DNA of 64,000 nucleotides from Marmoricola endophyticus (GTDB taxonomy: Bacteria; Actinomycetota; Actinomycetes; Propionibacteriales; Nocardioidaceae): NCBI RefSeq assembly GCF_014644415.1, contig NZ_BMKQ01000001.1, forward strand, positions 1,230,861 to 1,294,860, read 5' to 3'. Of the stretch, positions 25,085-63,033 are shown one piece after another (positions within the stretch are counted from its first letter, which is position 1; every line of letters starts with the position of its first letter). Under the pieces are notes generated by a model. It saw only the letters and a list, made by a program, of their open reading frames with translations, was not told where the DNA came from and did no database searches. The translations under genes and the position numbers were made by a program.

Positions 25085-25618
25085 TCAGCCCTGCTGGGGA
25101 CCCGGCCAGAACTTGCTCGGCTGCGGGACGGGCCTGCCGGGCTGCTCCCCGCCGCGCTCGTCGAGGTAGGACTGCTTGGGCACCATCACCTTGCGGCGGA
25201 AGAGGCACACGACCTTGCCGTCCTGGTTGTAGCCGATGGTCTCGACGTGCACGACGCCGCGGTCGTCCTTGCTCTTGGACTCCCACTTGTCGAGCACGGT
25301 GGTCTCGCCGTAGAGCGTGTCGCCGTGGAAGGTCGGCGCCACGTGCCGCAGCGACTCGATCTCGAGGTTCGCGATGGCCTTGCCCGAGATGTCCGGGACG
25401 CTCATCCCGAGCAGGACGGAGTAGACGTAGTTGCCCACCACGACGTTCTTGCCGAACTGGGTCGTCTCCTCGGCGTAGTGGATGTCGAGGTGCAGCGGGT
25501 GGTGGTTCATGGTGATCAGGCAGAAGAGGTGGTCGTCGGCCTCGGTCACCGTCTTGCCCGGCCAGTGCTTGTAGGTCGCACCGACCTCGAACTCCTCGTA
25601 GCTGCGTCCGAACTGCAT
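25085..25618 (-). CDS. MaoC-like dehydratase (hot-dog fold)
   Basis: This 177-residue hydratase-2-type protein has the hot-dog signature HPLHLDIHYAEETTQFG and VVVGNYVYSVLLGM, and ITMNHHPLH holds the Asp/His pair region. It probably hydrates an enoyl-CoA, close to the mesaconyl-CoA hydratase group. A strong ribosome site (GAGGAGGAG) precedes the ATG. No partner enzyme is adjacent. Confidence 0.87.
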   Translation of the reverse strand: MQFGRSYEEFEVGATYKHWPGKTVTEADDHLFCLITMNHHPLHLDIHYAEETTQFGKNVVVGNYVYSVLLGMSVPDISGKAIANLEIESLRHVAPTFHGDTLYGETTVLDKWESKSKDDRGVVHVETIGYNQDGKVVCLFRRKVMVPKQSYLDERGGEQPGRPVPQPSKFWPGPQQG

Positions 25619-25744: not shown

Positions 25745-26383
25745 ATGGCCGTCTCACCGCTCCCCGGGAAGCTGGTCGCCTCCGCGCTGACCGGGCTGCT
25801 GCTCGCCACCACCGTCTCGGCCTGCGGCGGCGACGACTCCAAGGACGACAAGGACTCGAAGGCCGACGCCAGCGCACCGAGCTACCCCGAGGTCAAGGGG
25901 ACGCCGGCCACCGGCGACGCCGTCAAGGCCAACGGCTACACCTACCGGCTGCCCAAGGGGTGGACCGTCATCACCAGTCAGCTCAAGGCGGCCAACCCCG
26001 GCATCGACTCCGGCGGTCGCGCGACCGAGCCCGTGAGCCGGTTCATGTCCAGCATCAACACCATCACCTCGCCCAACGAGGTCCAGGCGGGCGCCCCGAC
26101 CACGGCACAGCTGAAGGCGGTCGCGACCCAGATCCGCTCCGAGCTGGTTCCCATCTCCCCGCAGGTCAAGCAGCTCAGCCCGGTCTCCGTGGACGGCGTC
26201 CCCACCGTGCGCCAGGAGGGCAGGGCGAGCAACGAGACCGGACCCTTCTACGTCATGCAGTACTGGCTGGTCTCCCAGGGCAGCAGCTTCGGCTTCACCT
26301 TCGCCTTCCCCGAGGACTCCTCGAAGGCCGATCGCGACAAGGTCGTGACCTCGGTGCTGTCCTCGGTCTCCGTCGCCTCCTGA
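25745..26383 (+). CDS. Lipoprotein of unknown function
   Basis: This 212-residue protein has a lipoprotein signal: basic start, hydrophobic LVASALTGLLLATT and lipobox VSAC with lipidated Cys27, followed by an acidic/lysine linker (GGDDSKDDKDSKAD). The remaining ~155 residues resemble the LpqN/PsbP-like group (KANGYTYRLPKGWTVI), but that is only a guess. It lies directly upstream of the LicD/methyltransferase gene, separated by about 10 bases, and may serve the same surface pathway. Confidence 0.75.
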   Translation: MAVSPLPGKLVASALTGLLLATTVSACGGDDSKDDKDSKADASAPSYPEVKGTPATGDAVKANGYTYRLPKGWTVITSQLKAANPGIDSGGRATEPVSRFMSSINTITSPNEVQAGAPTTAQLKAVATQIRSELVPISPQVKQLSPVSVDGVPTVRQEGRASNETGPFYVMQYWLVSQGSSFGFTFAFPEDSSKADRDKVVTSVLSSVSVAS

Positions 26384-26393
26384 GGTGGTGCGC

Positions 26394-27977
26394 GTGACCG
26401 GGTCTCGCGTCGACGACCGGGGGATCCACCTCGCCGGCCACCTCGACGGACCGGTGGACGTCCTCTTCGGCGACCAGCGCGTGTGGTCCTTCACGACGCT
26501 CGACCAGGGGCGACGCGAGGGTGACGGCCTCCTCGTCCGGTGGCCGGACGCGCTGGCCGTACGCCTGCGAGGTACGACGCCCGTACGGGTCCGAGGGCAC
26601 CTCTCCGGCGAGACGGCGTTCGAGGGCGAGGTCTGCTTCGGCGGCTCGTCCGAGCCGCTGCACCTCGTCGACGACGCCGGTCACCCGCTGGCACTCGACA
26701 AGGGCAACCACCTGCAGCGCACCTTCGACCGGATGGACGCCGCCGCGCGCCTGGAGCTGGTCCGGGCCGCACGGACCGTGCTCGACGACCTCGTCGAGCA
26801 TGCCGGTCTCGAGGCGTACCTCGTCTACGGCTGCCTGCTCGGCGCCGCCCGCGACGGGCACATGATCGGTCACGACTCCGACGCCGACCTGGCCTGGCTG
26901 AGCCGCTCGACGCACCCGTTCGACATCATCCGCGAGACCCGCCGTGCCGAGTCCGCTCTGCGCGCTCGCGGGTGGACGGTGGTCCGGATGTCGGCCACCA
27001 ACTTCAAGGTCTGGGTGCCGCTGCCGACCGGCAAGCGCGCCGGTGTCGACGTCTTCGGCTCCTTCCACCTGGGGCCTCCGGGCGAGGAGCGCTTCCACAT
27101 CATGGGGAACCTGTCCGGCGACCTCCCCCGTGAGGCGATCGTCCCGTTCGGGACCATCGAGCTGGAGGGTGTGGAGTTCCCCGCGCCGCGCGACCTGCCG
27201 CGCTTCCTCGCCTACACCTACGGTCCCGGCTGGGCCGTCCCCGACCCGGCGTTCCGGTTCCACCACTCCCCCGCGGTGGTGGAGACCATGTCGTCGTTGT
27301 TCCGCACCAGCCGGTCGCGCCTGCACCACTGGACGGCGTTCTACGACAACCACGCCGCCGACGTGCCCTCCGAGCCGTCGCTCTTCGCTCGGTGGGCCGC
27401 CGACCGGATCCCCGCCGGCGCTCGGGTGCTCGAGGTCGGGGCCGGCCTGGGACGGGACGCCTTCTGGCTGACCGACCAGGGCTTCGACGTCCTCGGCTCG
27501 GAGTACGCCGGTGCCGCCCGCAGCCGGGCGCTGGCGCACTCGCGGGCGCGACGTGCCCGCGGGGAGTCGTTCGTGCGCTTCCCGATCCTCAACCTGGAGT
27601 CGGTCCGCAGCGTGCTGACCTCCGGGGCGGCGCTGGCGCGTCTGGACGGCCCGACGCACCTGTACGGCCGGCTGCTGCTGGACGCCCTCGAGCCGACGAC
27701 GCGGCCGCACCTGTGGCGACTGGCCGCGATGCTCGGCCGCCGTGGCGGGCACACGTTCCTGGAGTTCCGGACCGCGGCCAGCGAGCACGAGCCGACCCAC
27801 TTCCCGGCGCACCGGCGCACCTGGGCGGACCCGGACGAGGTGGTCGCCGAGGTCGAGGCCCGCGGCGGGCGGGTCCTGGTGCGTGAGGAAGGGCGCGGGC
27901 TGGCGCCGCTCGGGCGTGAGGACCCCGTAGTGTGCCGGCTGGACATCACCTGGGACGTACGAGCGGAGGACGCGTGA
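26394..27977 (+). CDS. Three-domain protein: N-terminal beta domain, LicD-like nucleotidyl/phosphotransferase, SAM methyltransferase (paralogue 1)
   Basis: This 527-residue protein has residues ~1-100 as a beta-rich domain shared with the paralogue at 30889-32424. Residues ~120-290 are LicD-like: YGCLLGAARDGHMIGHDSDA with acidic triad HDSDAD (160-165) and VDVFGSF. Residues ~320-527 are a class I methyltransferase with motif I VLEVGAGLGRDAF (~345). LicD proteins transfer phosphocholine-type groups to surface glycans. A combined transfer and methylation of a surface polymer is an inference. GTG 26394 has GAGGTGG upstream; GTG 26385 is the alternative. The end overlaps the coiled-coil gene. Confidence 0.82.
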   Translation: MTGSRVDDRGIHLAGHLDGPVDVLFGDQRVWSFTTLDQGRREGDGLLVRWPDALAVRLRGTTPVRVRGHLSGETAFEGEVCFGGSSEPLHLVDDAGHPLALDKGNHLQRTFDRMDAAARLELVRAARTVLDDLVEHAGLEAYLVYGCLLGAARDGHMIGHDSDADLAWLSRSTHPFDIIRETRRAESALRARGWTVVRMSATNFKVWVPLPTGKRAGVDVFGSFHLGPPGEERFHIMGNLSGDLPREAIVPFGTIELEGVEFPAPRDLPRFLAYTYGPGWAVPDPAFRFHHSPAVVETMSSLFRTSRSRLHHWTAFYDNHAADVPSEPSLFARWAADRIPAGARVLEVGAGLGRDAFWLTDQGFDVLGSEYAGAARSRALAHSRARRARGESFVRFPILNLESVRSVLTSGAALARLDGPTHLYGRLLLDALEPTTRPHLWRLAAMLGRRGGHTFLEFRTAASEHEPTHFPAHRRTWADPDEVVAEVEARGGRVLVREEGRGLAPLGREDPVVCRLDITWDVRAEDA

Positions 27978-28201
27978 TCGGCAGCAAGGAGCGCGAGGCC
28001 CGCCTGGACCGGCTCGAGCAGGAGGTCGCCTCGCTGCGCGTGGCGGTGGCCGAGTCGCAACGGCTCAACGAGCGGCTCTCCGACGTCCTCGACGTCGTCA
28101 TGGAGCTGCTGGTCCCCGCGGTCGACCGCGACGAGGAGCGCCTGCGCGCCGCCCTCGCCTCGGTGGACCGGGTGGTCAACGCTTCGCCGCGTACTCCTTG
28201 A
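27974..28201 (+). CDS. Short coiled-coil protein (paralogue 1)
   Basis: This 75-residue protein is almost entirely helical with heptad spacing (RLDRLEQEVASLRVAVAE), ending in a conserved segment DVLDVVMELLVP. The 77-residue protein at 30659-30892 shares the ELLVP block and layout. GTG overlaps the stop of the LicD/methyltransferase gene (GTGA), so both are made together. The 3' end overlaps the convergent acyl-CoA dehydrogenase gene by 26 bases. It resembles the DUF6752-type proteins. An oligomerisation partner role is inferred. Confidence 0.7.
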   Translation: MIGSKEREARLDRLEQEVASLRVAVAESQRLNERLSDVLDVVMELLVPAVDRDEERLRAALASVDRVVNASPRTP

Positions 28202-29372
28202 GCAGGCTGCGCCCGATGATCATCTTCTGCACGTCGCTGGTGCCCTCGCCGATCAGCATGAAGGCCGCCTCGCGGTAGAGCCGCTCGATCTCGTACTCCT
28301 TGGAGTAGCCGTAGCCGCCGTGGATGCGGAAGGAGTCCTGGACGACCTCGTTGCAGTACTCCGCGGCCACCATCTTGGCCATCCCGGCCTCGACGTCGTT
28401 GCGCTCGCCGCGGTCCTTCAACCGAGCGGCCTTGACCATCAGTGCGTGCGCGGTCTCCACCTTGGTGGCCATCTCCGCCAGGCGGAACAGGATCGCCTGG
28501 TGCTGCGCGATCGGCTTGCCGAAGGTCTCGCGCTGCTGGCTGTAGGCGATGCCGAGCTCGAAGGCGCGGTTGGAGATGCCGCAGGCACGGGCCGCGACGT
28601 TGACGCGACCGACCTCGACACCGTCCATCATCTGGTAGAAGCCCTTGCCCGGCTCACCACCGAGGATCTGCTCGGCGGAGATCCGGTGGCCCTCGAAGAT
28701 CGCCTCGGTGGTGTCGACGCCCTTGTAGCCCATCTTCTCGATCTTGCCGGGGATGGTGATCCCCTGGCCGACCTCGCCGAAGCCCGGCTCCTTCTCGACC
28801 AGGAAGGTGGTCATGTTCTTGTAGACCGAGTCCGCGCCCTCCTCGGAGTCGACCAGCAGCGCGATCAGCGTCGAGGAGCCACCGTTGGTCAGCCACATCT
28901 TCTGGCCGGTGATCTCGTAGCCCTCGTCGGTCCTCTTCGCCTTGGTCTTGATCGCGGAGACGTCGGACCCCAGACCCGGCTCGGACATCGAGAAGGCACC
29001 GCGCACCTCGCCCGTCGCCATCTTCGGCAGGTACTTCTGCTTCTGCTCGTCGGTGCCGTGGTTCATCAGCATGTACGCGACGATGAAGTGGGTGTTGATG
29101 ACCCCGGAGACGCTCATCCAGCCCCGGGCGATCTCCTCGACCACCAGCGCGTACGTCAGCAGCGACTCGCCGAGGCCGCCGTACTCCTCGGGGATGGTGA
29201 TGCCGAAGATGCCCAGCTCCTTCAGCCCGTCGACGATCTCCTGCGGGTACTCGTCGGCGTGCTCCAGCTCGGTCGCCACGGGCATGATCTTGGCCTCGAC
29301 GAACTGGCGGACGACTCTCAGGATCTCCTCCTGGATGTCGGTGAGTCCCTCGGTGGAGCACAGGCGCGCCAT
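28176..29372 (-). CDS. Acyl-CoA dehydrogenase
   Basis: This 398-residue FAD-dependent dehydrogenase has FSMSEPGLGSD and QKMWLTNGG (FAD and substrate loops), the RxxxFGKPIAQHQ segment and the C-terminal IHGGYGYSKEYEIERLYREA with EGTSD. The catalytic Glu position typical of short/branched-chain enzymes (VEVGRVNVAA region) differs among subgroups, so chain length is not called. It has a ribosome site AAAGGG before ATG. It stands alone, with its end overlapped by the coiled-coil gene. Confidence 0.93.
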   Translation of the reverse strand: MARLCSTEGLTDIQEEILRVVRQFVEAKIMPVATELEHADEYPQEIVDGLKELGIFGITIPEEYGGLGESLLTYALVVEEIARGWMSVSGVINTHFIVAYMLMNHGTDEQKQKYLPKMATGEVRGAFSMSEPGLGSDVSAIKTKAKRTDEGYEITGQKMWLTNGGSSTLIALLVDSEEGADSVYKNMTTFLVEKEPGFGEVGQGITIPGKIEKMGYKGVDTTEAIFEGHRISAEQILGGEPGKGFYQMMDGVEVGRVNVAARACGISNRAFELGIAYSQQRETFGKPIAQHQAILFRLAEMATKVETAHALMVKAARLKDRGERNDVEAGMAKMVAAEYCNEVVQDSFRIHGGYGYSKEYEIERLYREAAFMLIGEGTSDVQKMIIGRSLLKEYAAKR

Positions 29373-29462
29373 GGGTGAGTCCCTTTCGTCAGGCGGGTGA
29401 GCAACGAGGGCAGGCTACCGACGGCTCGCTCGCGGCGTCGCCGTCCCGACGGATGGGATTCC

Positions 29463-30647
29463 TCACGTCGGCGGGCGTCCGCCCCGCAGCAGCTGCTTGG
29501 CCCGGGAGCCCGCGACCCGCCACAAGGGGGCGCGGACCCGGCCCTCGAGGTCGTCGACCCGCGCCTGGAGGACGGACACCGTCTCGGCCGCCTCGCGTGA
29601 CTCGACGCGCAGCCGACGCCGCTCGTGGCGCAGCGCGCGCACATCGCCGAGCATCGTGGCCACGAGCTCGGTCGCCACGGCAGCCACCTCGCCGTCGGTG
29701 ACCGACTCGGGGTGCCGGCGCTCGGGCAGCTCGTCGGGCACGAGCAGGTCGGCGAGCTCGCCGACGACGTCGTACCCCCGCTCGCGGACCAGCGCGACCG
29801 CGGCACGTGCCCGCCGCCGAGCGTCCTCGACCTGGTCGTCGGCCGGCCAGAACCGGTCGCCCGCCCGCGGCACCAGCCGCTCGTCGGCCAGGAAGCTGCG
29901 GATGTAGGTGCCCTTGTCGATCGCGCTCACGAAGGCGTCGAGGTGGGCGTTGACCCGGCGCAGCGTCTCCGCCTCGGCCACGCCCATGGCCTCGTTGGGG
30001 AAGCTGCCCGAGAGGTCGTACGCGTCCGCGTCCAGGCCGAGCAGCCCGGCGAACCGTCGCCAGATCTCCTCGCGCGGGTGGTCCCGCCCGGGCAGCGGGA
30101 GCACGTGGACGTGCTCGGGGCGCACCGGCCCCCCGGCGGGTGCCCACCGGTCGAGGACCAGGCCGAGGTCCAGCGTGCGCCAGTTCCACACCTGGGTCGG
30201 GTCCTCGGAGACGGTGCGGGAGTACTCCCCCATCGGCGCCGTCTCGCGGTTCTTCAGGCTCTCCTGCCAGCTGGAGGTGAACAGCCCCAGCGGCTCACGC
30301 GCCGTGGCCACGAGGTGCACCTCGGCGGGCGCGAGGGCCTCGATCGCGTCCCGGGCCTGCTCGGCGGAGGCCGCGGCGAAGAACTCGTGACTGATCAGCA
30401 CCGTGCCGGGCCACTCGGCGGCCCGGGCACGCAGGCGCTCCCACGCACCTCGCTGCCAGTCGGTGATCCCGACGCCCGCCATGTCGTCACGGACGTTGCG
30501 CGAGGCCCACAGGTGCTCGCGCCGCTGCTCACCGGGCAGCAGCACGCCGTCGGCGCGCAGCCGGTCGCGCGAGCCCCACAGGATGGTCTGGAGGTACGTC
30601 GTCGCCGTCTTCGGCAGCCCCAGGTGCAGGTAGACGCGATCTGCCAT
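29463..30647 (-). CDS. Sulfotransferase-like protein with C-terminal coiled coil (paralogue 1)
   Basis: This 394-residue protein begins with a PAPS-type P-loop, LHLGLPKTATTYLQ (~6-19). A second element, VATAREPLGLFTSSWQESLKN, matches the 3'-phosphate-binding Arg/Ser pattern of sulfotransferases. The C-terminal ~55 residues are basic and heptad-like (VLQARVDDLEGRVRAPLW), much like the separate coiled-coil proteins. The likely role is sulfation of a surface glycan or glycolipid; the acceptor is unknown. It is last in the operon after the LicC-like, LicD/methyltransferase and coiled-coil genes. A related protein is at 61879-63033. Confidence 0.8.
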   Translation of the reverse strand: MADRVYLHLGLPKTATTYLQTILWGSRDRLRADGVLLPGEQRREHLWASRNVRDDMAGVGITDWQRGAWERLRARAAEWPGTVLISHEFFAAASAEQARDAIEALAPAEVHLVATAREPLGLFTSSWQESLKNRETAPMGEYSRTVSEDPTQVWNWRTLDLGLVLDRWAPAGGPVRPEHVHVLPLPGRDHPREEIWRRFAGLLGLDADAYDLSGSFPNEAMGVAEAETLRRVNAHLDAFVSAIDKGTYIRSFLADERLVPRAGDRFWPADDQVEDARRRARAAVALVRERGYDVVGELADLLVPDELPERRHPESVTDGEVAAVATELVATMLGDVRALRHERRRLRVESREAAETVSVLQARVDDLEGRVRAPLWRVAGSRAKQLLRGGRPPT

Positions 30648-30658
30648 CGTGCGGGCCG

Positions 30659-30892
30659 CTAGATGCTGCGCGGGTAGCGCTCGAGCGCCGCCTCGATCTT
30701 CGCGCGGTCCTGGGAGGCGACCGGCACCAGCAGCTCCTCCACGACGTCGGTCAGCTCGGCCAGCCTCAGGTTGGTCCGGCGCAGCTCCTGCACCTCGCGC
30801 TCCAGCTCGGCCACCCGGGCGGCCAGGTCGCTCTCCCGCCTCAGAACCCGCCTGGCCGCACGTCGTGCGAACGACTGCTCCATCCCGCTCAC
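30659..30892 (-). CDS. Short coiled-coil protein (paralogue 2)
   Basis: This 77-residue protein has a basic N-terminus (RRAARRVLRRESDL), then a heptad-repeat helix (RVAELEREVQELRRTNLRL) and the block TDVVEELLVPVASQD also found in the protein at 27974-28201. It has no signal or membrane segment. GTG 30892 overlaps the stop of the upstream LicD/methyltransferase gene, exactly as for its paralogue; an internal ATG at 30883 is possible. The sulfotransferase-like gene follows after 11 bases. The pairing with LicD/methyltransferase genes twice over argues for a joint complex. Confidence 0.72.
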   Translation of the reverse strand: MSGMEQSFARRAARRVLRRESDLAARVAELEREVQELRRTNLRLAELTDVVEELLVPVASQDRAKIEAALERYPRSI

Positions 30893-32424
30893 GCCTTCCT
30901 CGCCTTCCACTCGGCCACCAGCCGAACGTATCGCCTGCCGTCACCGTCGGGCCGCAGCTCCTCGCGCTCGACCACCTCGCCACCGGCGGCGGCGACCTCC
31001 GCCACCACCCGGTCCACCGGCACCATCCGCGCGGGGTACGCCGGCTCCGGCCCCCCGCACCAGGTCTCGAGGTAGAGCCGCCCTCCCTCGCGCAGCGCCA
31101 TCGAGGCCAGCCGCCACAGCGAGCGGCGTCCCGGTGCGGTCGTCGACTCGATCAGGTGCCTGGCCATCAGCGCCCGCCGGCGTGGGTGCTGGGCCAGGTC
31201 GGCACCCGTACCGAGGACCGAGCGGAGCTCGAGGAGGTTGAGCCGCTCCACGTGCAGCGGCAGCCCCTCGGACTCCGCCACGGTCGCGGCGCCCTTGCTG
31301 GCGCTCGGCGCGTAGTCGTAGCTACGGGCGGGCGACCCCTCGCGTGCCCACCAGACCGCATCGGCGCCGCTGCCTCCCCCGACGTCGACCAGCTCCACGT
31401 CGGGTCCCTCGCGGTCGCGGACGAGACGCGCCAGGTCGCTCGCGGTACGACCCGGTGGACGACCACGCAGCCGGGAGTAGACCCGGTCCCACGCCGGCCG
31501 GTTGACCCGGGTGCCGCGGAACCAGCCGTCCAGGCGGCGGGTGGTCGAGCGGGGGGTCTCGAACTGGAAGGCCGGGTCGGGGGTCCGCCAGCCGTCGCCG
31601 TACATCGCGGCGAGCATCCGGCCCGGGTCGGCCGGTGCCGGCAGGGTCCGTCCCTCGAGCGTGCAGGTGCCCAGCGGGAAGAGCCAGGAGGTCTCGTACT
31701 CCTGCCCCACCTCGCCCATCAGGTAGAGCCGCCCGTCGGTCATGAAACCGCCGAAGACGTCGAGACCACGGGTGGAGCCATCGGCCTCGCGGACCTCGAC
31801 CTTGAACGCGACGCCGGAGTAGCGCGTGATCGGGTAGCCCAGCTCGGCGAGCGCGCGCTGCACCCGGAACGACTCGCGCACGACGTCGACCGGGTGCTCG
31901 TGACGACTCACGTAGCCCAGGTCGGCATCGGAGTCGTGCCCGATCAGCCGGCCCTCCCGGACCGCACCGAGCAGCGTGCCGTACGCCGGGAACGCCTCGA
32001 TGCCGGCCTCACGCAGGGCACCGAGCACCTCCTCGATGCTGTCCAGCAGCGGTGCGACCTGCTCGGCGCTGCGGGTGTCGAACGTCTGCGCCATCCGTCC
32101 GGACTTGTCGATGCCCAGCGGCTTGCCGTCCGCGTTGACCACGGCGATCTGCTTCTCGGCGGTGCCGAACTGCACCGGCCGGTCGAGGAGCACCCGGCCC
32201 GAGAGGTGCTCGGCGACCTGGAGCGTCGTCCGGCCGTCGAGGAACCGGCGCATCGACTGCGGCCAGGCGACGAACCGGCCCCCCGTCGACGGCTCGGAGT
32301 CGCGCAGCAGCCAGAACGACCAGATCCGTCGACCGTCGAAGCTGACGTCGAGGACGACTTCCGCGTCGCCGGACAGGACCATGCCCGCGTCGTCGAGCTG
32401 CAGGACCCTGCTCTCCTCAGCCAC
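30889..32424 (-). CDS. Three-domain protein: N-terminal beta domain, LicD-like nucleotidyl/phosphotransferase, SAM methyltransferase (paralogue 2)
   Basis: This 511-residue protein has the same layout as the protein at 26394-27977: a beta-rich domain (~1-105, RRIWSFWLL, HLSGRVLL), a LicD-like domain with YGTLLGAVREGRLIGHDSDA (acidic triad 163-168) and LDVFGGFM, then a methyltransferase with VELVDVGGGSGADAV (motif I ~345-353). The glycine-rich motif and downstream acidic residue (SYDYAP) support SAM binding. It lies 24 bases after the LicC-like gene and overlaps the coiled-coil gene, placing activation, transfer and methylation steps in one operon. The product is inferred to be a modified surface polymer. 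Confidence 0.82.
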   Translation of the reverse strand: MAEESRVLQLDDAGMVLSGDAEVVLDVSFDGRRIWSFWLLRDSEPSTGGRFVAWPQSMRRFLDGRTTLQVAEHLSGRVLLDRPVQFGTAEKQIAVVNADGKPLGIDKSGRMAQTFDTRSAEQVAPLLDSIEEVLGALREAGIEAFPAYGTLLGAVREGRLIGHDSDADLGYVSRHEHPVDVVRESFRVQRALAELGYPITRYSGVAFKVEVREADGSTRGLDVFGGFMTDGRLYLMGEVGQEYETSWLFPLGTCTLEGRTLPAPADPGRMLAAMYGDGWRTPDPAFQFETPRSTTRRLDGWFRGTRVNRPAWDRVYSRLRGRPPGRTASDLARLVRDREGPDVELVDVGGGSGADAVWWAREGSPARSYDYAPSASKGAATVAESEGLPLHVERLNLLELRSVLGTGADLAQHPRRRALMARHLIESTTAPGRRSLWRLASMALREGGRLYLETWCGGPEPAYPARMVPVDRVVAEVAAAGGEVVEREELRPDGDGRRYVRLVAEWKARKA

Positions 32425-32448
32425 GAACGTCGTCCGCTGCGGTCCGCG

Positions 32449-33144
32449 TCACCGCCCGACGAAGGCGTTGGCCTTCGTCAGGTCGTCGTCGAAGTCGACC
32501 TCGACCACGGAGAACTCGGAGACGTCGACCGGGGCGAGACGCAGGCCGTCGTGCTCGATGGCCAGCTCCAGGCCGCGCTCGAAGTAGTCGGTGTCCTCGC
32601 ACTCGGCCAGGCGGGTGATCAGCGCCTGCTTGTCGGCCGCGGAGACGTAGTTGATGCCGACGGCCTCCCCGAGCCCGCCGACCACGGTCTTGGACAGCTC
32701 GGCGATCATGCCGTCGTCGTCGAGGGTGTACTTGACCTCCTCCTCGGCGACCGAGGAGCGGTCGACGCACACGAAGCTGCGCTCGCCGCCGACCCGGTCG
32801 GCGATCGCCTCGAGCACCCGGGGGTCGAACACGACGTCGCCGTTCATCCACAGCACGCCACCGTCGTGGGACTGACGCAGCGCCTTGAGCAGGCTGCGGT
32901 TGGTGTTGGTGGAGTCGTAGACCTCGTTGTAGACGAAGGAGAGGTCCGGCATGGCCTCGATCACCAGGTCGAGCTTGAAGCCGACGACGGCGGTGATGTG
33001 GGCCTCGGCCCACCGCTCGCGCAGCAGCCGGACTGCGCGGCGCATGATCGACTCGCCCGTGGTGAGGGGAGTCAGGGGCTTGGGGTGGGGCCGGCCGAGT
33101 CGGGTGCCCATCCCGGCGGCGAGGATCACGACCTGGGTCTGCAC
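32449..33144 (-). CDS. Sugar/choline-phosphate nucleotidyltransferase (LicC-like)
   Basis: This 231-residue protein has the NTP-transferase signature VVILAAGMGTRLGRPHPKPL followed by a Rossmann-like core with NGDVVFDP (metal site) and GLGEAVGINYVS. LicC-type enzymes make CDP-choline or a related activated headgroup, which the LicD-like domain downstream could use. Sequence alone cannot separate this from sugar-1-phosphate transferases. The GTG start has TAGCCT (33152-33157) 7 bases upstream, so this is probably the first gene of the operon that runs through the sulfotransferase-like gene. Confidence 0.82.
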   Translation of the reverse strand: MQTQVVILAAGMGTRLGRPHPKPLTPLTTGESIMRRAVRLLRERWAEAHITAVVGFKLDLVIEAMPDLSFVYNEVYDSTNTNRSLLKALRQSHDGGVLWMNGDVVFDPRVLEAIADRVGGERSFVCVDRSSVAEEEVKYTLDDDGMIAELSKTVVGGLGEAVGINYVSAADKQALITRLAECEDTDYFERGLELAIEHDGLRLAPVDVSEFSVVEVDFDDDLTKANAFVGR

Positions 33145-33154
33145 CGGTCGCAGG

Positions 33155-34048
33155 CTACATGCCGGCCGGCTCCGGGACGGCCCGCCTCGCGGTGAGGACG
33201 ACCAGCGCCAGCCCGGCGAGCACCAGGCCCAGACCGGCGAAGACCCCGGCGGCGGGGACCTGGCCCAGCAGCGCCGCCGCGATCACCGCGGCGCCCGGGA
33301 TCTCCAGGAGGAGCGCCAGCGAGACCACCATCGGCGAGATCGTGTCCAGCAGCCGGTTGAACACGGAGTGCCCGAGCAGCTGTGCCGTCAGCGTCACGAC
33401 GAGCAGGAGACCCCACTCGCGCGGGGCGTACCCGACCAGGCGTACGCCGAGGAGGAGGCCGGTCACCAGGAGCGCGAGGGCCGCGGTGCCGTAGCAGCAG
33501 ACGGTGTACGTCGTCGTCGAGACGCCGCGCCGGACGTGCGAGCCCAGCACGGTGTAGGCCGCGACCGCGACCGACCCGACCACCGCGAGCAGGTCCCCGA
33601 CCACCGCGCGGGTCGAGGTGGCGACGTCGACGCCGGTGATCACGAGGACGCCGCCCAGCGCGAGGACGAGGCCGGCCCAGGCGAGCGCGGCGAGGCGTAC
33701 TCCGGTGAGCCGGTCCCAGGCGACCACCCAGACCACCTGCAGCGAGACCAGGGCGGTGCTGGCGGCGACCGAGGTCATCCGCAGCGAGGTGACCCAGGTG
33801 CCGAAGTGCAGCGCCAGGCACAGCCCGGCGGTCACGACCATCGTCACGGTGCGCCGGTCCAGGGCCCGGAGCTCGGCACGTCGGCGGGTCAGCGCCACCG
33901 GTGCGAGGAGCCCGGTGGCCATCGCGTTGCGCCACATCGAGACGGCGAGCGCGGGGACCGCCAGCCCCGCCATCAGCGGCCCGGAGAACGACACCGCGAC
34001 CACACCGACGACCATCAGGGCGACGGTCGCCGGGCCGACCGCCCTCAT
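33155..34048 (-). CDS. EamA/DMT family permease
   Basis: This is a 297-residue, ten-helix protein with two EamA repeats (first MWRNAMATGLLAPVAL, second GTAALALLVTGLLLGV and ALLLEIPGAAVIAAALLGQ). The superfamily includes LicB choline permeases, sugar-nucleotide and amino-acid exporters. Its position just upstream of the LicC-like and LicD-like genes fits import of the headgroup, but a long-range coupling is not proven because the LicC-like gene seems to have its own promoter. The upstream adenylate cyclase gene ends 11 bases before. Confidence 0.82.
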   Translation of the reverse strand: MRAVGPATVALMVVGVVAVSFSGPLMAGLAVPALAVSMWRNAMATGLLAPVALTRRRAELRALDRRTVTMVVTAGLCLALHFGTWVTSLRMTSVAASTALVSLQVVWVVAWDRLTGVRLAALAWAGLVLALGGVLVITGVDVATSTRAVVGDLLAVVGSVAVAAYTVLGSHVRRGVSTTTYTVCCYGTAALALLVTGLLLGVRLVGYAPREWGLLLVVTLTAQLLGHSVFNRLLDTISPMVVSLALLLEIPGAAVIAAALLGQVPAAGVFAGLGLVLAGLALVVLTARRAVPEPAGM

Positions 34049-34058
34049 GACCGCCGGC

Positions 34059-35057
34059 TCACAGGCGCTTGACCGCGATCGGCTCCACGTCGCCGAACCC
34101 CCGCAGCGGACGCAGCGGAAGGGTGCGCAGCTGGAACTGCTCGGGCGGCAGCAGGCCGGCCGTCCGCTGGTCGGCGATGATCCGGTTGCGGCGCGCGACC
34201 GAGGTCATCCGTGCCGCGAGGTTGACGGCCGGACCGAAGACGTCACCCAGCCGCATCACGACCGGCCCGGTGGCCAGGCCGACCCGGACGTCGGGCAGCG
34301 ACTTGTCGCGGCCGAAGCTCCGCACGATGGCGGCGGCGACGTCGTACGCCGCCTCGGGCTCGTCGCAGACGTAGAGCACCGAGTCGCCGAGCGTCTTGAT
34401 CACCCGGCCGCCGTGGGTCGCGACCGCGTCGGTCGCACGCGACTCGAAGACCTCGACCATCTCGCCCAGCCGGGCCTGCGTGTGCTGGTTGGAGTACGCC
34501 GAGAACTGGACGATGTCGGCGAACCCGACCGTCAGCTCGGCCGTGTGCAGGTCGGCGTCCTGGGCCCCCATCGCGGAGACCCGGGCGACCGCCGCGGCCA
34601 GGTGCCGCCGCCAGGCGTGGACCAGCACCTTCTCGAAGCCCGGCGAGAGGTCCTCGACCAGTCGCGTGGCGCTGCCCAGGCGACTGCCGGTGGCCTGCTC
34701 GCCGCGCTCGAGCTCCTCCACCCGGCCGGCCAGCGTGGCGACCTCCCAGTCGGCCAGGCGGGCCATGGTCTGGCCCAGGGCCCGGGTCAGGGCCATCACG
34801 TGGTCCCGGTCGATCGCGCCGCTGTCGGTCAGCGCGATCGTGTCCTGCACCGCCTGCACGTCGAGCTCGGTGAAGGCCGCCTGCCCGGCGGCGTCGGCGA
34901 AGCCCAGGGCCCGCCACAGCCGCTTGCTCGTCTCGGACTCCACGCCCGAGAGCTCGGCGACCTCGTCCGAGGTCAGCGCGGGCGGGGCTCCGAGGATCGC
35001 GACCTCGAGCTGCTCGCGGGTGTAGGAGTCCGGCACGGCGACGATTGTCTCACTCAC
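34059..35057 (-). CDS. Class III adenylate cyclase with N-terminal regulatory domain
   Basis: This 332-residue protein has an N-terminal ~150-residue all-helical region of the kind that acts as a pH-sensing/autoinhibitory domain in mycobacterial Rv1264-type cyclases. The cyclase homology domain follows: TVGFADIVQFSAYSN and IKTLGDSVLYV supply the metal Asp residues, and VFGPAVNLAARM supplies the transition-state Asn/Arg. It makes cAMP as a homodimer. The GTG start overlaps the birA stop (GTGA). A cyclase next to birA is a conserved actinobacterial arrangement. Confidence 0.93.
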   Translation of the reverse strand: MSETIVAVPDSYTREQLEVAILGAPPALTSDEVAELSGVESETSKRLWRALGFADAAGQAAFTELDVQAVQDTIALTDSGAIDRDHVMALTRALGQTMARLADWEVATLAGRVEELERGEQATGSRLGSATRLVEDLSPGFEKVLVHAWRRHLAAAVARVSAMGAQDADLHTAELTVGFADIVQFSAYSNQHTQARLGEMVEVFESRATDAVATHGGRVIKTLGDSVLYVCDEPEAAYDVAAAIVRSFGRDKSLPDVRVGLATGPVVMRLGDVFGPAVNLAARMTSVARRNRIIADQRTAGLLPPEQFQLRTLPLRPLRGFGDVEPIAVKRL

Positions 35058-35803
35058 GAGGTGACACGCAGGTGAACGACGTCGCCGGCACCGACCACGT
35101 GCGGCTCCCCCGCGTCGTCGGTGAGCACCAGTCGGCCGTGCTCGTCGAGCCGGTCCGCGCGGCCCTCTAGCACGCCCCCGCCGGGCAGCTCGGCGCGGAC
35201 CCGCCGGCCGAGCGTCACCGACCGCCGGACGTACGACGCGCGCAGCGCGCCGGGGCCGCCCTCGGCTCGCCACGCGCCGAGCCCCGCCCCGATCCGGGCG
35301 AGGAGCGCGCCGAGCAGCTCCTCGACCGTGGTCTGCACGCCGGCCAGGGCGAGCGAGGTCGCCGTCGGGACGGGGAGCTCCCTCTGGTGGACGTTGACGC
35401 CGATCCCGAGCACCGCGAGCGGGTGCCCACCCGGCGCGAGGACGCGCTCGACCAGGATGCCGGCCAGCTTGCGCTCCTCGAGCAGCACGTCGTTGGGCCA
35501 CTTCACGCCGGGCGCGAGCCCCGTCAGCTCCTCGACCGCCTCGCAGCAGGCCACACCGACCGCGAGCGGCAGCCAGGGCCACTGCGCGTCCGGGACCCCC
35601 GGGTCGACGACGGCCGAGCACGTCAGCGCCACCCCCGCCGGCGTCTCCCAGCGGCGGTCCAGCCGCCCGCGCCCGGCGGTCTGGTGGTCGGTGACCACGA
35701 CCAGACCCGGCGGCTCGCCACGACGTACGGCCTCGGCGGCCACCTCGTTGGTCGACGGGCTCTCGGGCAGGCGCTGCACCCGCCAGGGGCTCTGATCCGG
35801 CAC
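35054..35803 (-). CDS. birA: Biotin--[acetyl-CoA-carboxylase] ligase
   Basis: This 249-residue monofunctional biotin protein ligase has SPSTNEVA, GRGRLDRRWETPAG (biotinyl-AMP site, GRGRxxRxW), VKWPNDVLL with the catalytic Lys, and a C-terminal SH3-like domain (GAGDVVHLRV). There is no N-terminal DNA-binding domain, so it is not a repressor. It is divergent from accD and would biotinylate the AccA BCCP domain encoded at 58869-60659. GTG 35803 is used; GTG 35809 is equally possible. Confidence 0.94.
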   Translation of the reverse strand: MPDQSPWRVQRLPESPSTNEVAAEAVRRGEPPGLVVVTDHQTAGRGRLDRRWETPAGVALTCSAVVDPGVPDAQWPWLPLAVGVACCEAVEELTGLAPGVKWPNDVLLEERKLAGILVERVLAPGGHPLAVLGIGVNVHQRELPVPTATSLALAGVQTTVEELLGALLARIGAGLGAWRAEGGPGALRASYVRRSVTLGRRVRAELPGGGVLEGRADRLDEHGRLVLTDDAGEPHVVGAGDVVHLRVTS

Positions 35804-60721: not shown

Positions 60722-61879
60722 GTGACGGCACCGGTCAGCTTCCTCCTCCTCGACAGCACGGGGCACGGCGGACTGGCGCGCACGGTCCTGAACCTCGCGA
60801 ACCAGCTGGTCGCGCACCGGCCGGTCCGGGTGATCAGCGTGCTGCGCCGCGGGCAGGAGCCGCGCTACACCCTCGACCCCCGCATCGAGCACGAGGTGCT
60901 CGTCGACCTCGTCAAGGGCCCCGGCCCCCTCGACCGGGCGCGGCACCGGCGGCCGAGCCGGCTGGTCCCGCAGCCGCCTGACGACGGACCCGGCGACGGC
61001 GCGCTGACCGGCCTGGTCGACCACGCGCTGCGCCGCCGGCTGTCCCGGCTGGAGCCGGGGACGCTGGTCACGACGCGCCCGACGCTGCACCTGGCCGCGA
61101 CGCGGTGGCGCGCGAAGGGCGTGCGGGTCGTCGGCTGGGACCACCTGAACTACCCGTGCCGCTACCGCCAGCCGTGGCTCGCCTCCGTCCTCGACGCCGC
61201 GATCCCCTCCCTCGACGCGTGGGTGGTGCTGACCGACGCGGACGCCTGCGACTACCGCGAGCGGTTCGCGCTCGGCCCGGAGCGCGTGCGCGTCATCCGC
61301 AACGCCCTGTCCTGGGCACCGGCCGCCGAACCCGCGCCGCTGGAGGCCAAGCGCCTGGTGGCGGCCGGCCGTCTGGTGCCGGTCAAGGGCTTCTCGCGCC
61401 TGATCGACGCCTTCGCCGGGGTCGCCCGGATGCATCCGGACTGGTCCCTGGACATCCACGGGGAGGGACCGCGCCGCGAGGCGCTGCAGGCGCGGATCGA
61501 CGCGCACGGGATCGATGACCGCGTCCGCCTGGCCGGGTACGTCGACGACATGGCCGCCACCCTGCGCGGCGCGTCCGGGCTGGCGATGACCTCCTCTGCG
61601 GAGGGCTTCCCGATGGTGCTCCTCGAGGCGATGGCGGAGGGCGTGCCGATGGTGGCGATGGACTGCCCGCGCGGGCCCGCCGAGATGGTGCGCGACGGCG
61701 AGAACGGCTTCTTGGTGGCCGAGGGCGACGTGGCCGGCTTCACCCGGGCGCTGCACACGCTGATCGGGGACGCCGAGCTGCGCCGGAGCCTGGGCAAGCA
61801 GGCCTGGCTGGACGCGGAGTCGTACACCACCGAGCGGATCGTCCAGGACTGGCTGGAGCTGCTGGACGGGGTCGCCTGA
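60722..61879 (+). CDS. Glycosyltransferase family 4
   Basis: This 385-residue GT-B glycosyltransferase has an N-terminal acceptor domain starting FLLLDSTGHGGLARTVLNLA and a C-terminal nucleotide-sugar domain with VAAGRLVPVKGFSRLIDAF, HGEGPRREAL and SSAEGFPMVLLEAMAEGVP (E-x7-E). The sugar is unknown. It shares a one-base stop/start overlap with the sulfotransferase-like gene, so glycosylation and sulfation of the same surface compound is likely. Confidence 0.93.
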   Translation: MTAPVSFLLLDSTGHGGLARTVLNLANQLVAHRPVRVISVLRRGQEPRYTLDPRIEHEVLVDLVKGPGPLDRARHRRPSRLVPQPPDDGPGDGALTGLVDHALRRRLSRLEPGTLVTTRPTLHLAATRWRAKGVRVVGWDHLNYPCRYRQPWLASVLDAAIPSLDAWVVLTDADACDYRERFALGPERVRVIRNALSWAPAAEPAPLEAKRLVAAGRLVPVKGFSRLIDAFAGVARMHPDWSLDIHGEGPRREALQARIDAHGIDDRVRLAGYVDDMAATLRGASGLAMTSSAEGFPMVLLEAMAEGVPMVAMDCPRGPAEMVRDGENGFLVAEGDVAGFTRALHTLIGDAELRRSLGKQAWLDAESYTTERIVQDWLELLDGVA

Positions 61880-63033
61880 TGGCGGCGAAGGGCCGGCCGA
61901 CGCCCCGGGTCCACCTCCACGTCGGGCTGCCCAAGTCGGGGACCACGTTCCTGCAGTCCTCCCTGGCGCGGCACGAGTCGCACCTGGCCGACCTCGGCGT
62001 CGACCTCCCCGTCGGCGACGCGGTGATGGTCGACGCCGCGCTCGACGTACGCCGCGAGTACGACGGCTTCGGCCGCGACCCCGAGCGGGTACGGGGCGCG
62101 TTCGCCCGCGTCGCCGAGCGGGTGCACCAGTCGGCCGGCCGCGGGCGCCACTCCGTGCTGTCCCACGAGCTGCTGGGGGCGGCGACCGCCGAGCAGGCGC
62201 AGGCGGCCCTCGATCTCCTGGCGCCCCTCGAGGTGCACCTCGTCGTCACCGCCCGTGACCCCGCCAGGCAGGCCCTGGCGGAGTGGCAGGAGGGGATCAA
62301 GCACGCCCGCCGCCTGCGGTTCGAGAAGTTCACCCGCACCGTCCTGAACGGCGAGACCGACTCCGAGCACGCGCGACGCTTCCGCGGCGCGCAGGACCTG
62401 ACCGCGGTGCTGGACCGGTGGGGGCGCTCGCTGCCGCCCGAGCGGGTCCACCTGGTCACCGCACCCCCGCGCGGCACCGACCCGAGGGTGCTCTGGGGCA
62501 GGTTCGCCGAGGCACTCGGCATCGACGCCACGGACCTCGAGCCCGCGGGCCGCGAGCACGGCAACGCCTCGCTGGGGACGGCCGAGATCAGCGTGCTGCG
62601 CCAGGTGAACCGCGCGCTGAGCCGCGACCACAAGGGCGTGCTGGACCGCCCGCGGTACGGACGGACGGTCAAGCGGGTCTACGCCCAGCAGGTCCTCGCC
62701 GGGCTCGGGTCACCCCGCCCGGTGCTGCCGGTCTCGCTGGTCGGGCCGATGCGCGACCGGGCCGAGCTGTGGGCCAAGGCCGTCGACGCGGCCGGCTGGC
62801 AGGTGCACGGCGACCTCGACGACCTGCTGCCCGCCGAGCCCGAGCCGGGCTCCCCGCACCCCGACGACGTCGAGGCCGACGCGCTGCTCTCCGCCGCGAT
62901 CGACGGCACGGCCGGACTGCTCGTCAGGCTGGCCGAGGAGCAGGACCGGGTCATGGAGCTGCAGGCCGAGGTCGAGCGGCTGCGACGCAAGCGCCGCAAG
63001 CTCAAGGAGCGGCTGGCGCGGAAGTCGGGCTGA
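61879..63033 (+). CDS. Sulfotransferase-like protein with C-terminal coiled coil (paralogue 2)
   Basis: This 384-residue protein has a PAPS-type P-loop LHVGLPKSGTTFLQSS near the N-terminus and the second element VVTARDPARQALAEWQEGIK. The last ~45 residues form a strongly charged coiled coil (VMELQAEVERLRRKRRKLKE). It has the same architecture as the protein at 29463-30647, in which the P-loop reads LPKTATTYLQ. It is coupled with the preceding glycosyltransferase. The acceptor is unknown; a surface glycolipid or polysaccharide is inferred. Confidence 0.8.
   Translation: MAAKGRPTPRVHLHVGLPKSGTTFLQSSLARHESHLADLGVDLPVGDAVMVDAALDVRREYDGFGRDPERVRGAFARVAERVHQSAGRGRHSVLSHELLGAATAEQAQAALDLLAPLEVHLVVTARDPARQALAEWQEGIKHARRLRFEKFTRTVLNGETDSEHARRFRGAQDLTAVLDRWGRSLPPERVHLVTAPPRGTDPRVLWGRFAEALGIDATDLEPAGREHGNASLGTAEISVLRQVNRALSRDHKGVLDRPRYGRTVKRVYAQQVLAGLGSPRPVLPVSLVGPMRDRAELWAKAVDAAGWQVHGDLDDLLPAEPEPGSPHPDDVEADALLSAAIDGTAGLLVRLAEEQDRVMELQAEVERLRRKRRKLKERLARKSG

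Follow-up and report, generated by a model that had tools for sequence, protein, structure and literature searches.

The window analysed here is a stretch of 64,000 nucleotides from Marmoricola endophyticus (contig NZ_BMKQ01000001.1, positions 1,230,861 to 1,294,860). It carries two paralogous genes, LMT-A and LMT-B, whose products join a LicD domain to a methyltransferase (LMT, LicD-methyltransferase), and each is adjoined by a gene for a short coiled-coil protein of the Pfam family DUF6752 (PF20537). The unit conserved among relatives is this pair, LMT plus DUF6752, and not a lic-like gene set. With a probability of roughly 0.55, the LMT would be a cytidine diphosphate (CDP)-alcohol-dependent phosphotransferase/methyltransferase linked to a sulfotransferase, and would serve to decorate or cap a surface glycan in a manner resembling WbdD, its nearest working analogue. 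The first-pass annotation had described the region as an island for surface-polymer decoration, an interpretation that is partly supported overall. The central genes, called like all those of the window by codon usage, are the following.

26394..27977, plus strand, LMT-B, 527 aa: N-terminal beta domain, LicD domain and class I methyltransferase
27974..28201, plus strand, DUF6752 coiled-coil partner of LMT-B, 75 aa (PF20537, 49.5 bits; cut-off 27)
29463..30647, minus strand, sulfotransferase, 394 aa, with a long C-terminal helix
30659..30892, minus strand, DUF6752 coiled-coil partner of LMT-A, 77 aa (PF20537, 84.7 bits; cut-off 27), overlapping the end of LMT-A by 4 bases
30889..32424, minus strand, LMT-A: beta domain (residues 1-118 or so), LicD/FKRP-type domain (about 119-300) and class I S-adenosylmethionine (SAM) methyltransferase (about 304-509)
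32449..33144, minus strand, LicC/PntC-class nucleotidyltransferase, 231 aa (PF12804, 58.7 bits), 24 bases upstream of LMT-A

The two-copy fusion of LicD and methyltransferase, proposed earlier from the letters of the window, is real. LMT-A and LMT-B are 37% identical, and both exceed the cut-off of the LicD family PF04991 (30.1 and 24.4 bits, respectively, against 22.6), the matched stretch covering only 33 residues. PF04991 was matched in 61 of 61 LMT homologues at E<=1e-3; a six-frame search of the M. endophyticus genome with the same family did not pick up the LMTs. A profile of LMT-A matched human FKRP in the PDB (E 6.4e-7) over residues 126-278, with the DxDxD region aligned, FKRP being the sole match to the LicD part among the best 60 of 156 matches. 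The predicted structure of LMT-A (predicted local distance difference test, pLDDT, 92.2) agrees with this, since Foldseek also retrieved FKRP (7.7e-9). The same model resembles methyltransferases with Z up to 20.0, and the LMT has the class I SAM methyltransferase fold with its motif I; the structure-search lists were filled by matches to this domain, and for the methyltransferase part of LMT-B the Pfam methyltransferase families stayed below their cut-offs. Among the proteins called in the fetched loci, the profile of the N-terminal beta domain matched LMTs only, at E<=1e-3. Three proteins were compared with phage families and gave zero matches at E<=1e-3.

Conservation was followed in 199 loci fetched for carrying an LMT match, so that the neighbour counts below are frequencies of neighbours and not of genomes. 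Ten of these loci had no labelled LMT (L097, L114, L122, L215, L217-L220, L224, L225). From 212 labelled LMTs, 208 were kept (four shorter than 440 aa were dropped), and clustering at 97% left 175, of which 44 have fewer than six called genes on one side. The LicD motif residues, whose conservation had been set beforehand as a test, are invariant or nearly so: D164 is present in 174 of the 175 LMTs and D166, D168 and D222 in all of them. The SAM motif is retained in most. In one related genome (G046, locus L079), LMT-A is apparently frame-split, two partial matches overlapping at C1:262744-262877. Stand-alone methyltransferase domains of the LMT type also occur near DUF6752 and LMT genes (L087, L090, L241, and L103, which belongs to the genome of L128), possibly as a split or accessory form.

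LMTs are concentrated in the family of the window, Nocardioidaceae. At E<=1e-3 they were found in 99 of 149 genomes of this family, 85 of them with strong matches, and the 14 weak genomes (E above 1e-50) were kept separate. Among 394 genomes of the class, 28 have a match at E<=1e-10 and 23 a strong one. The strong class set comprises 30 matches (E 1.7e-38 or better; with up to 3 LMT and up to 16 DUF6752 candidates scored per genome, the numbers per genome are to be read as at least so many). Nine weaker matches (E 1.1e-19 to 2.1e-12) were excluded: two in G093 and one each in G199, G251, G056, G037, G229, G088 and G011; five genomes contain weaker matches only. Beyond the family of the window, strong LMTs of the class set occur in G251, G421 and G237. 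Searches in the families of G421 and G237 at E<=1e-30 gave 9 of 120 and 12 of 120 genomes, the first count including G421 and the second G237, and in four of the nine, with weaker matches (L217-L220), the N-terminal part is missing. The best 80 named loci of 365 relatives are chiefly from Nocardioides and Marmoricola, both Nocardioidaceae.

The first-pass annotation treated the short coiled-coil proteins as accessories. Of all neighbours, however, DUF6752 is the one most tightly coupled to the LMT. In the class search, the separate Pfam model of DUF6752 found 23 of 394 genomes, exactly the 23 with a strong LMT. None of the 30 DUF6752 matches is farther than 1.35 kb from an LMT, and the 30 strong LMTs all have a DUF6752 match within 3 kb. 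In the same way, DUF6752 was found in 84 of the 149 family genomes, all of them among the 85 with strong LMTs. The exception, G106, has a 65-aa gene after its LMT that scores with a custom model (5.2e-8) and reaches 20.1 bits with Pfam, below the cut-off of 27. The M. endophyticus genome has two copies, one adjoining each LMT. The custom coiled-coil model was built from the fetched LMT loci themselves, the Pfam model serving as an independent check. The latter remains below its cut-off for some distant partners (L091 26.4, L268 20.1 and the fused L092 23.5 bits). Five of 212 custom-model hits are separated from an LMT by a distance of more than two genes or come from loci without a called one.

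For 155 of the 175 LMTs, DUF6752 is a separate gene at most two genes away; in 8 cases it forms part of the adjacent sulfotransferase and in 7 of the LMT itself, and in 5 none was detected. Counting all fusions, DUF6752 sits at the C-terminal end of 7 LMTs and 11 sulfotransferases. Three fusions were checked with Pfam: the LMT of L255 (77.1 bits) and the sulfotransferase of L262 (69.0) pass 27 and the LMT of L092 (23.5) fails. In the LMT tree the fused LMTs occupy two separate places, so the LMT fusion probably arose more than once. One protein fused to two different partners is a classical sign of a link between those partners. Since it is fused to both enzymes, DUF6752 probably joins LMT and sulfotransferase, and would mediate their physical contact.

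The sulfotransferase-like protein noticed earlier has a genuine sulfotransferase fold and would use 3'-phosphoadenosine 5'-phosphosulfate. A sulfotransferase occurs within six genes of 127 of the 175 LMTs. The order LMT, DUF6752, sulfotransferase on one strand is found for 89 of them, and DUF6752, sulfotransferase, LMT for 7.

From the observed domain make-up, residues, folds, co-occurrence, fusions and neighbour types, we infer every chemical step that follows, and with them the donor, the acceptor and the methylation site in the window. The LMT would be a bifunctional transferase, presumably cytoplasmic. The CDP donor would in the window probably come from the co-directional nucleotidyltransferase; across the family it would most likely be an alditol, of the CDP-ribitol or CDP-glycerol type. 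The LicD domain, judging from its family and residues, may move the phospho-alcohol from the CDP donor to a lipid-linked or growing surface glycan, and LicD proteins are also described as transferring phosphate in the sections of PMC4873967 bearing on them. The fused methyltransferase may then methylate the added unit or the chain end. DUF6752, as its dedicated partner and a coiled coil with a conserved helix, would assemble the LMT and, near most LMT genes, bring a heparan-sulfate-type sulfotransferase to the same glycan. The resulting unit would decorate or cap a surface polymer.

The nature of the donor is indicated by the activating genes beside the LMTs. Of the 175 LMTs, 44 have a CDP-alcohol synthase type within six genes: 10 are IspD-type, 8 LicC-like with a glycerol-1-phosphate-dehydrogenase-like gene, 7 TagD-like, 18 of the type of the window and 1 TagD-like together with the type of the window. 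In this last locus the TagD-like match, a 27% hit to a 384-aa protein, is probably spurious. In five of the window-type cases the LMT is on the opposite strand, at a distance of six genes. Immediately upstream on the same strand lie 7 TagD-like genes, 12 of the window's type and 5 in which IspD is fused to a short-chain dehydrogenase/reductase (SDR). Nine of the ten IspD-type proteins have the length of IspD plus SDR; the tenth, that of L227, has just 238 aa and no reductase. L092, the single IspD-SDR protein scanned, exceeds the cut-off for D-ribitol-5-phosphate cytidylyltransferase (175 against 166). In a midpoint-rooted FastTree phylogeny, the TagD-like group makes up a single clade of 7 (support 0.87), and a clade of 15 (support 1.0) contains the IspD group. 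The LicC-like group paired with the glycerol-1-phosphate-dehydrogenase-like gene has a profile match to LicC (1jyk, 1.2e-14). Because some relatives adjoin ribitol-5-phosphate, glycerol-3-phosphate-like or glycerol-1-phosphate-like activating genes, the usual cargo of the family is probably an alditol phosphate and not choline. CDP-glycerol as a donor is put forward more cautiously, because neither the TagD-like nor the glycerol-1-phosphate-dehydrogenase-like gene scanned reaches its NCBIfam equivalog cut-off (see below).

For the window itself, a LicC-like nucleotidyltransferase had been proposed. Its assignment to the LicC/PntC class stands, with a profile match to 6pd1 (a PntC fusion; E 1.6e-6) and a position directly upstream of LMT-A, and it is probably, as predicted from its sequence, a CTP:alcohol-phosphate (or phosphonate) cytidylyltransferase. 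This brings in a lic-1-like variant, in which phosphoethanolamine would be attached and then methylated towards phosphocholine, or an aminoalkylphosphonate attached. The likeness to lic-1 (LicA, LicB, LicC and LicD) is that the LMT belongs to the LicD family and has a LicC/PntC-class nucleotidyltransferase in its operon. The differences are the methyltransferase fusion, an EamA gene that is not coupled to the system, the other activating genes of relatives and the absence of LicA among the 20 window genes scanned. The Pfam scan covered 20 of the 63 called genes of the window, chosen around the island, and found no choline kinase among them, in line with the earlier remark that no LicA-like kinase is seen; no such search covered the remainder of the genome. 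Furthermore, relatives with the same methyltransferase domain adjoin activating genes of the ribitol or glycerol type, alcohols that have no amine, and EamA is not linked to the nucleotidyltransferase. As for a phosphonate donor, the sole sign of a pathway in the genome is one generic PEP_mutase-family match over the cut-off (PF13714, L272, 211.9 bits), and this family is also matched in 11 of 14 control genomes; the L272 protein also lacks what we take to be the signature of phosphoenolpyruvate mutase. The lic-1-like variant is thus rather unlikely. The methylation from ethanolamine to choline offered earlier as an example is disfavoured for the family, given the CDP-ribitol-type and CDP-glycerol-like synthases of some relatives; in the window itself, whose nucleotidyltransferase profile matches a PntC fusion, it may still occur.

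Two other candidates were rejected for M. endophyticus. For CDP-ribitol synthesis, its genome has nothing beyond an IspD-like match (29%) and SDRs at scattered places. PF04464, the family of TagF-type teichoic acid synthesis, gave 0 matches there and is present in 3 of the 14 control genomes.

Several observations weigh against a CDP-alcohol-dependent, sulfotransferase-linked LMT. None of the four synthase types occurs within six genes of 131 of the 175 LMT genes. The equivalog cut-offs are missed by the TagD-like gene (62 against 165) and by the glycerol-1-phosphate-dehydrogenase-like gene (261.5 against 413), and the nucleotidyltransferase of the window matches an enzyme class for amino-alkyl substrates. 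No sulfotransferase lies within six genes of 48 of the 175 LMTs, 21 of these 48 having a shortened neighbourhood. The structural neighbours of the methyltransferase domain are generic. Finally, in the four stretches of the M. endophyticus genome that were read for the context of other sulfotransferase copies, the markers used revealed no polymer-synthesis cluster. A surface-polymer setting, as proposed earlier, is found in some relatives: in the fetched stretches of the 8 glycerol-1-phosphate-type loci, labels point to Glf-like genes in 6, GlfT2-like genes in 6, an ATP-binding cassette (ABC) exporter in 5 and LytR-CpsA-Psr (LCP) genes in 4, the families being confirmed on L082 and L078.

These loci also bear on the possibility that the LMT and its coiled coil act as a chain terminator, a methylated alditol phosphate ending a galactan or teichoic-type chain and gating or measuring its length as WbdD of Escherichia coli O9a does. 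In the parts of PMC3482155 dealing with it, WbdD phosphorylates and methylates the chain end, and its C-terminal coiled-coil region serves in trimer formation and mannosyltransferase recruitment. The likeness concerns the working logic only, namely phosphate addition, SAM-dependent methylation and a C-terminal coiled coil in glycan assembly (PMC3482155, same parts), three elements that the LMT system matches, the coiled coil being fused C-terminally in 7 LMTs and GlfT2-like, ABC exporter and LCP genes standing in some loci. WbdD differs in having a kinase where the LMT has its LicD domain, in its domain order and in its coiled coil, which for the LMT is usually a separate small protein. The LMT had zero kinase families among its Pfam matches at E<=1 and is not a WbdD member; the lack of a kinase bars membership and not similar working. 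A WbdD profile hit is weak (0.0024) and common to many methyltransferases. The DUF6752 consensus has 81 positions with a conserved motif in a helix, a short coiled coil that would suit a docking helix rather than a ruler. The exporter ATPases of four loci (248-262 aa) seem too short for an additional cap-binding domain, and only 5 of the 175 LMTs have exporter genes in the six-gene neighbourhood. Chain termination of this kind is a tentative idea. Equally tentative is a broader proposal, that LMT, DUF6752 and sulfotransferase form a glycan-finishing complex of Actinomycetes. Here the FKRP-like domain would add one alditol phosphate, methylation would block further units and the coiled coil would hold transferase, sulfotransferase and chain end together; such a complex would be a counterpart of WbdD that evolved independently, with CDP-alditols in place of ATP and with chain ending coupled to sulfation.

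The reading of the LMT as a CDP-alcohol-dependent transferase finds its closest known relatives in FKRP and FKTN, ribitol-5-phosphate transferases with a LicD domain, to which its LicD domain is homologous with the DxDxD region aligned. Some LMT relatives adjoin an IspD-type ribitol-5-phosphate cytidylyltransferase fused to a reductase, which recalls the link between ISPD and LicD proteins treated in sections of PMC4873967. The fused methyltransferase, another N-terminal domain and the coiled-coil partner set the LMT apart from them.

The remaining genes in and around the island are the following.

25085..25618, mesaconyl-CoA-hydratase-like (MaoC) gene, flanking the island
25745..26383, plus strand, lipoprotein-like gene, 212 aa, an open reading frame called by codon usage that ends 10 bases before LMT-B
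28176..29372, minus strand, acyl-CoA dehydrogenase, interrupting the island
33155..34048, minus strand, EamA-family permease, 297 aa (PF00892, 66.5 bits), co-directional and 10 bases upstream of the nucleotidyltransferase
34059..35036, minus strand, adenylate/guanylate-cyclase-domain gene, 10 bases upstream of the EamA gene
35054..35779, minus strand, biotin ligase, 17 bases from the cyclase gene

Given minus-strand spacings of 10, 24, -4 and 11 bases, the genes for EamA, nucleotidyltransferase, LMT-A, DUF6752 and sulfotransferase look like a single operon, to which the cyclase-domain gene and the biotin ligase may also belong. Conservation of this neighbourhood, which the first-pass annotation expected, is found for the sulfotransferase and not for the nucleotidyltransferase of the window's type (near 19 of the 175 LMTs) or for EamA. 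An EamA gene lies within six genes of 16 LMTs, 7 with the window-type nucleotidyltransferase, 8 with an HpcH/HpaI lyase and without it, and 1 with neither. Its tie to the LMT system is weak, and these counts do not support the idea that it plays the part of LicB.

Such counts raise the possibility that the genes are neighbours through inherited position and not through joint function. Ordinary genes mark a fixed chromosomal site, and not a function: an acyl-CoA dehydrogenase lies within six genes of 100 of the 175 LMTs and an MgtE_N-domain gene of 91. The MaoC gene of the window matches mesaconyl-CoA hydratase and some related loci add HpcH/HpaI; together with the acyl-CoA dehydrogenase, these genes probably belong to ordinary, unrelated acyl-CoA metabolism, although the mesaconyl-CoA-hydratase-like gene, too, is often a neighbour in relatives. 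Inherited position may still be the reason why EamA, the mesaconyl-CoA-hydratase-like gene and the acyl-CoA dehydrogenase lie here. As an explanation of the whole cassette it is improbable, since DUF6752 stays with the LMT at different chromosomal sites and in further families of the class, and forms fusions with both the LMT and the sulfotransferase.

The three enzyme types, LicD proteins, methyltransferases and sulfotransferases, are familiar; the literature searches brought up neither the LMT fusion nor its constant DUF6752 partner nor the double fusion of the latter. In the open-licence literature no description of a LicD-methyltransferase-DUF6752 system was found, a literature search for DUF6752 found no paper, and one for Nocardioides and teichoic acid found none on the biosynthesis of sulfated, methylated, phosphodiester-bearing polymers. 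DUF6752, a domain of unknown function, gains a testable role, and a methylating branch is added to the LicD family, in which the human proteins FKRP and FKTN are linked with dystroglycanopathies (PMC4873967). Such sulfated, methylated, phosphodiester-bearing surface polymers are predicted in Nocardioides and its relatives. The series of activating genes (glycerol-3-phosphate-like, glycerol-1-phosphate-like, ribitol-5-phosphate and the window's own type) makes donor specificity testable within one enzyme family.

Phospholipase D (PLD)-like genes lie near 78 of the 175 LMTs and endonuclease/exonuclease/phosphatase-like genes near 69 (families confirmed on one example each), and their products could cut polymer phosphodiesters. 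The N-termini read among these proteins (L067, L070, L082 and others) resemble signal peptides by eye. Some Nocardioides LMT islands contain an acyltransferase with an SGNH domain (L136:12956-15022, similar in L130 and L146, the family being checked on L136 only), which suggests O-acylation of the same polymer; that of L136 scores 240.8 bits against SucT, below the cut-off of 1275. Whether the lipoprotein-like gene is part of the LMT system is uncertain: its product has zero Pfam families at E<=1 and a weak match to NCBIfam lipo_SCO4651 (18.6 bits; cut-off 65), and a counterpart with 43% identity adjoins LMT-B in L095.

Further sulfotransferases of the same kind occur in M. endophyticus. In the window, a glycosyltransferase-like gene, assigned by eye (60722-61879, plus strand), stands directly before the gene of a second sulfotransferase from this family (61879-63033, plus strand), which has no Pfam hit at E<=1e-4 and scores 337.9 bits with the sulfotransferase profile. 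Two more tandem paralogues stand after carboxylase-like genes elsewhere in the genome (G000:C1:2268250-2270524, L289).

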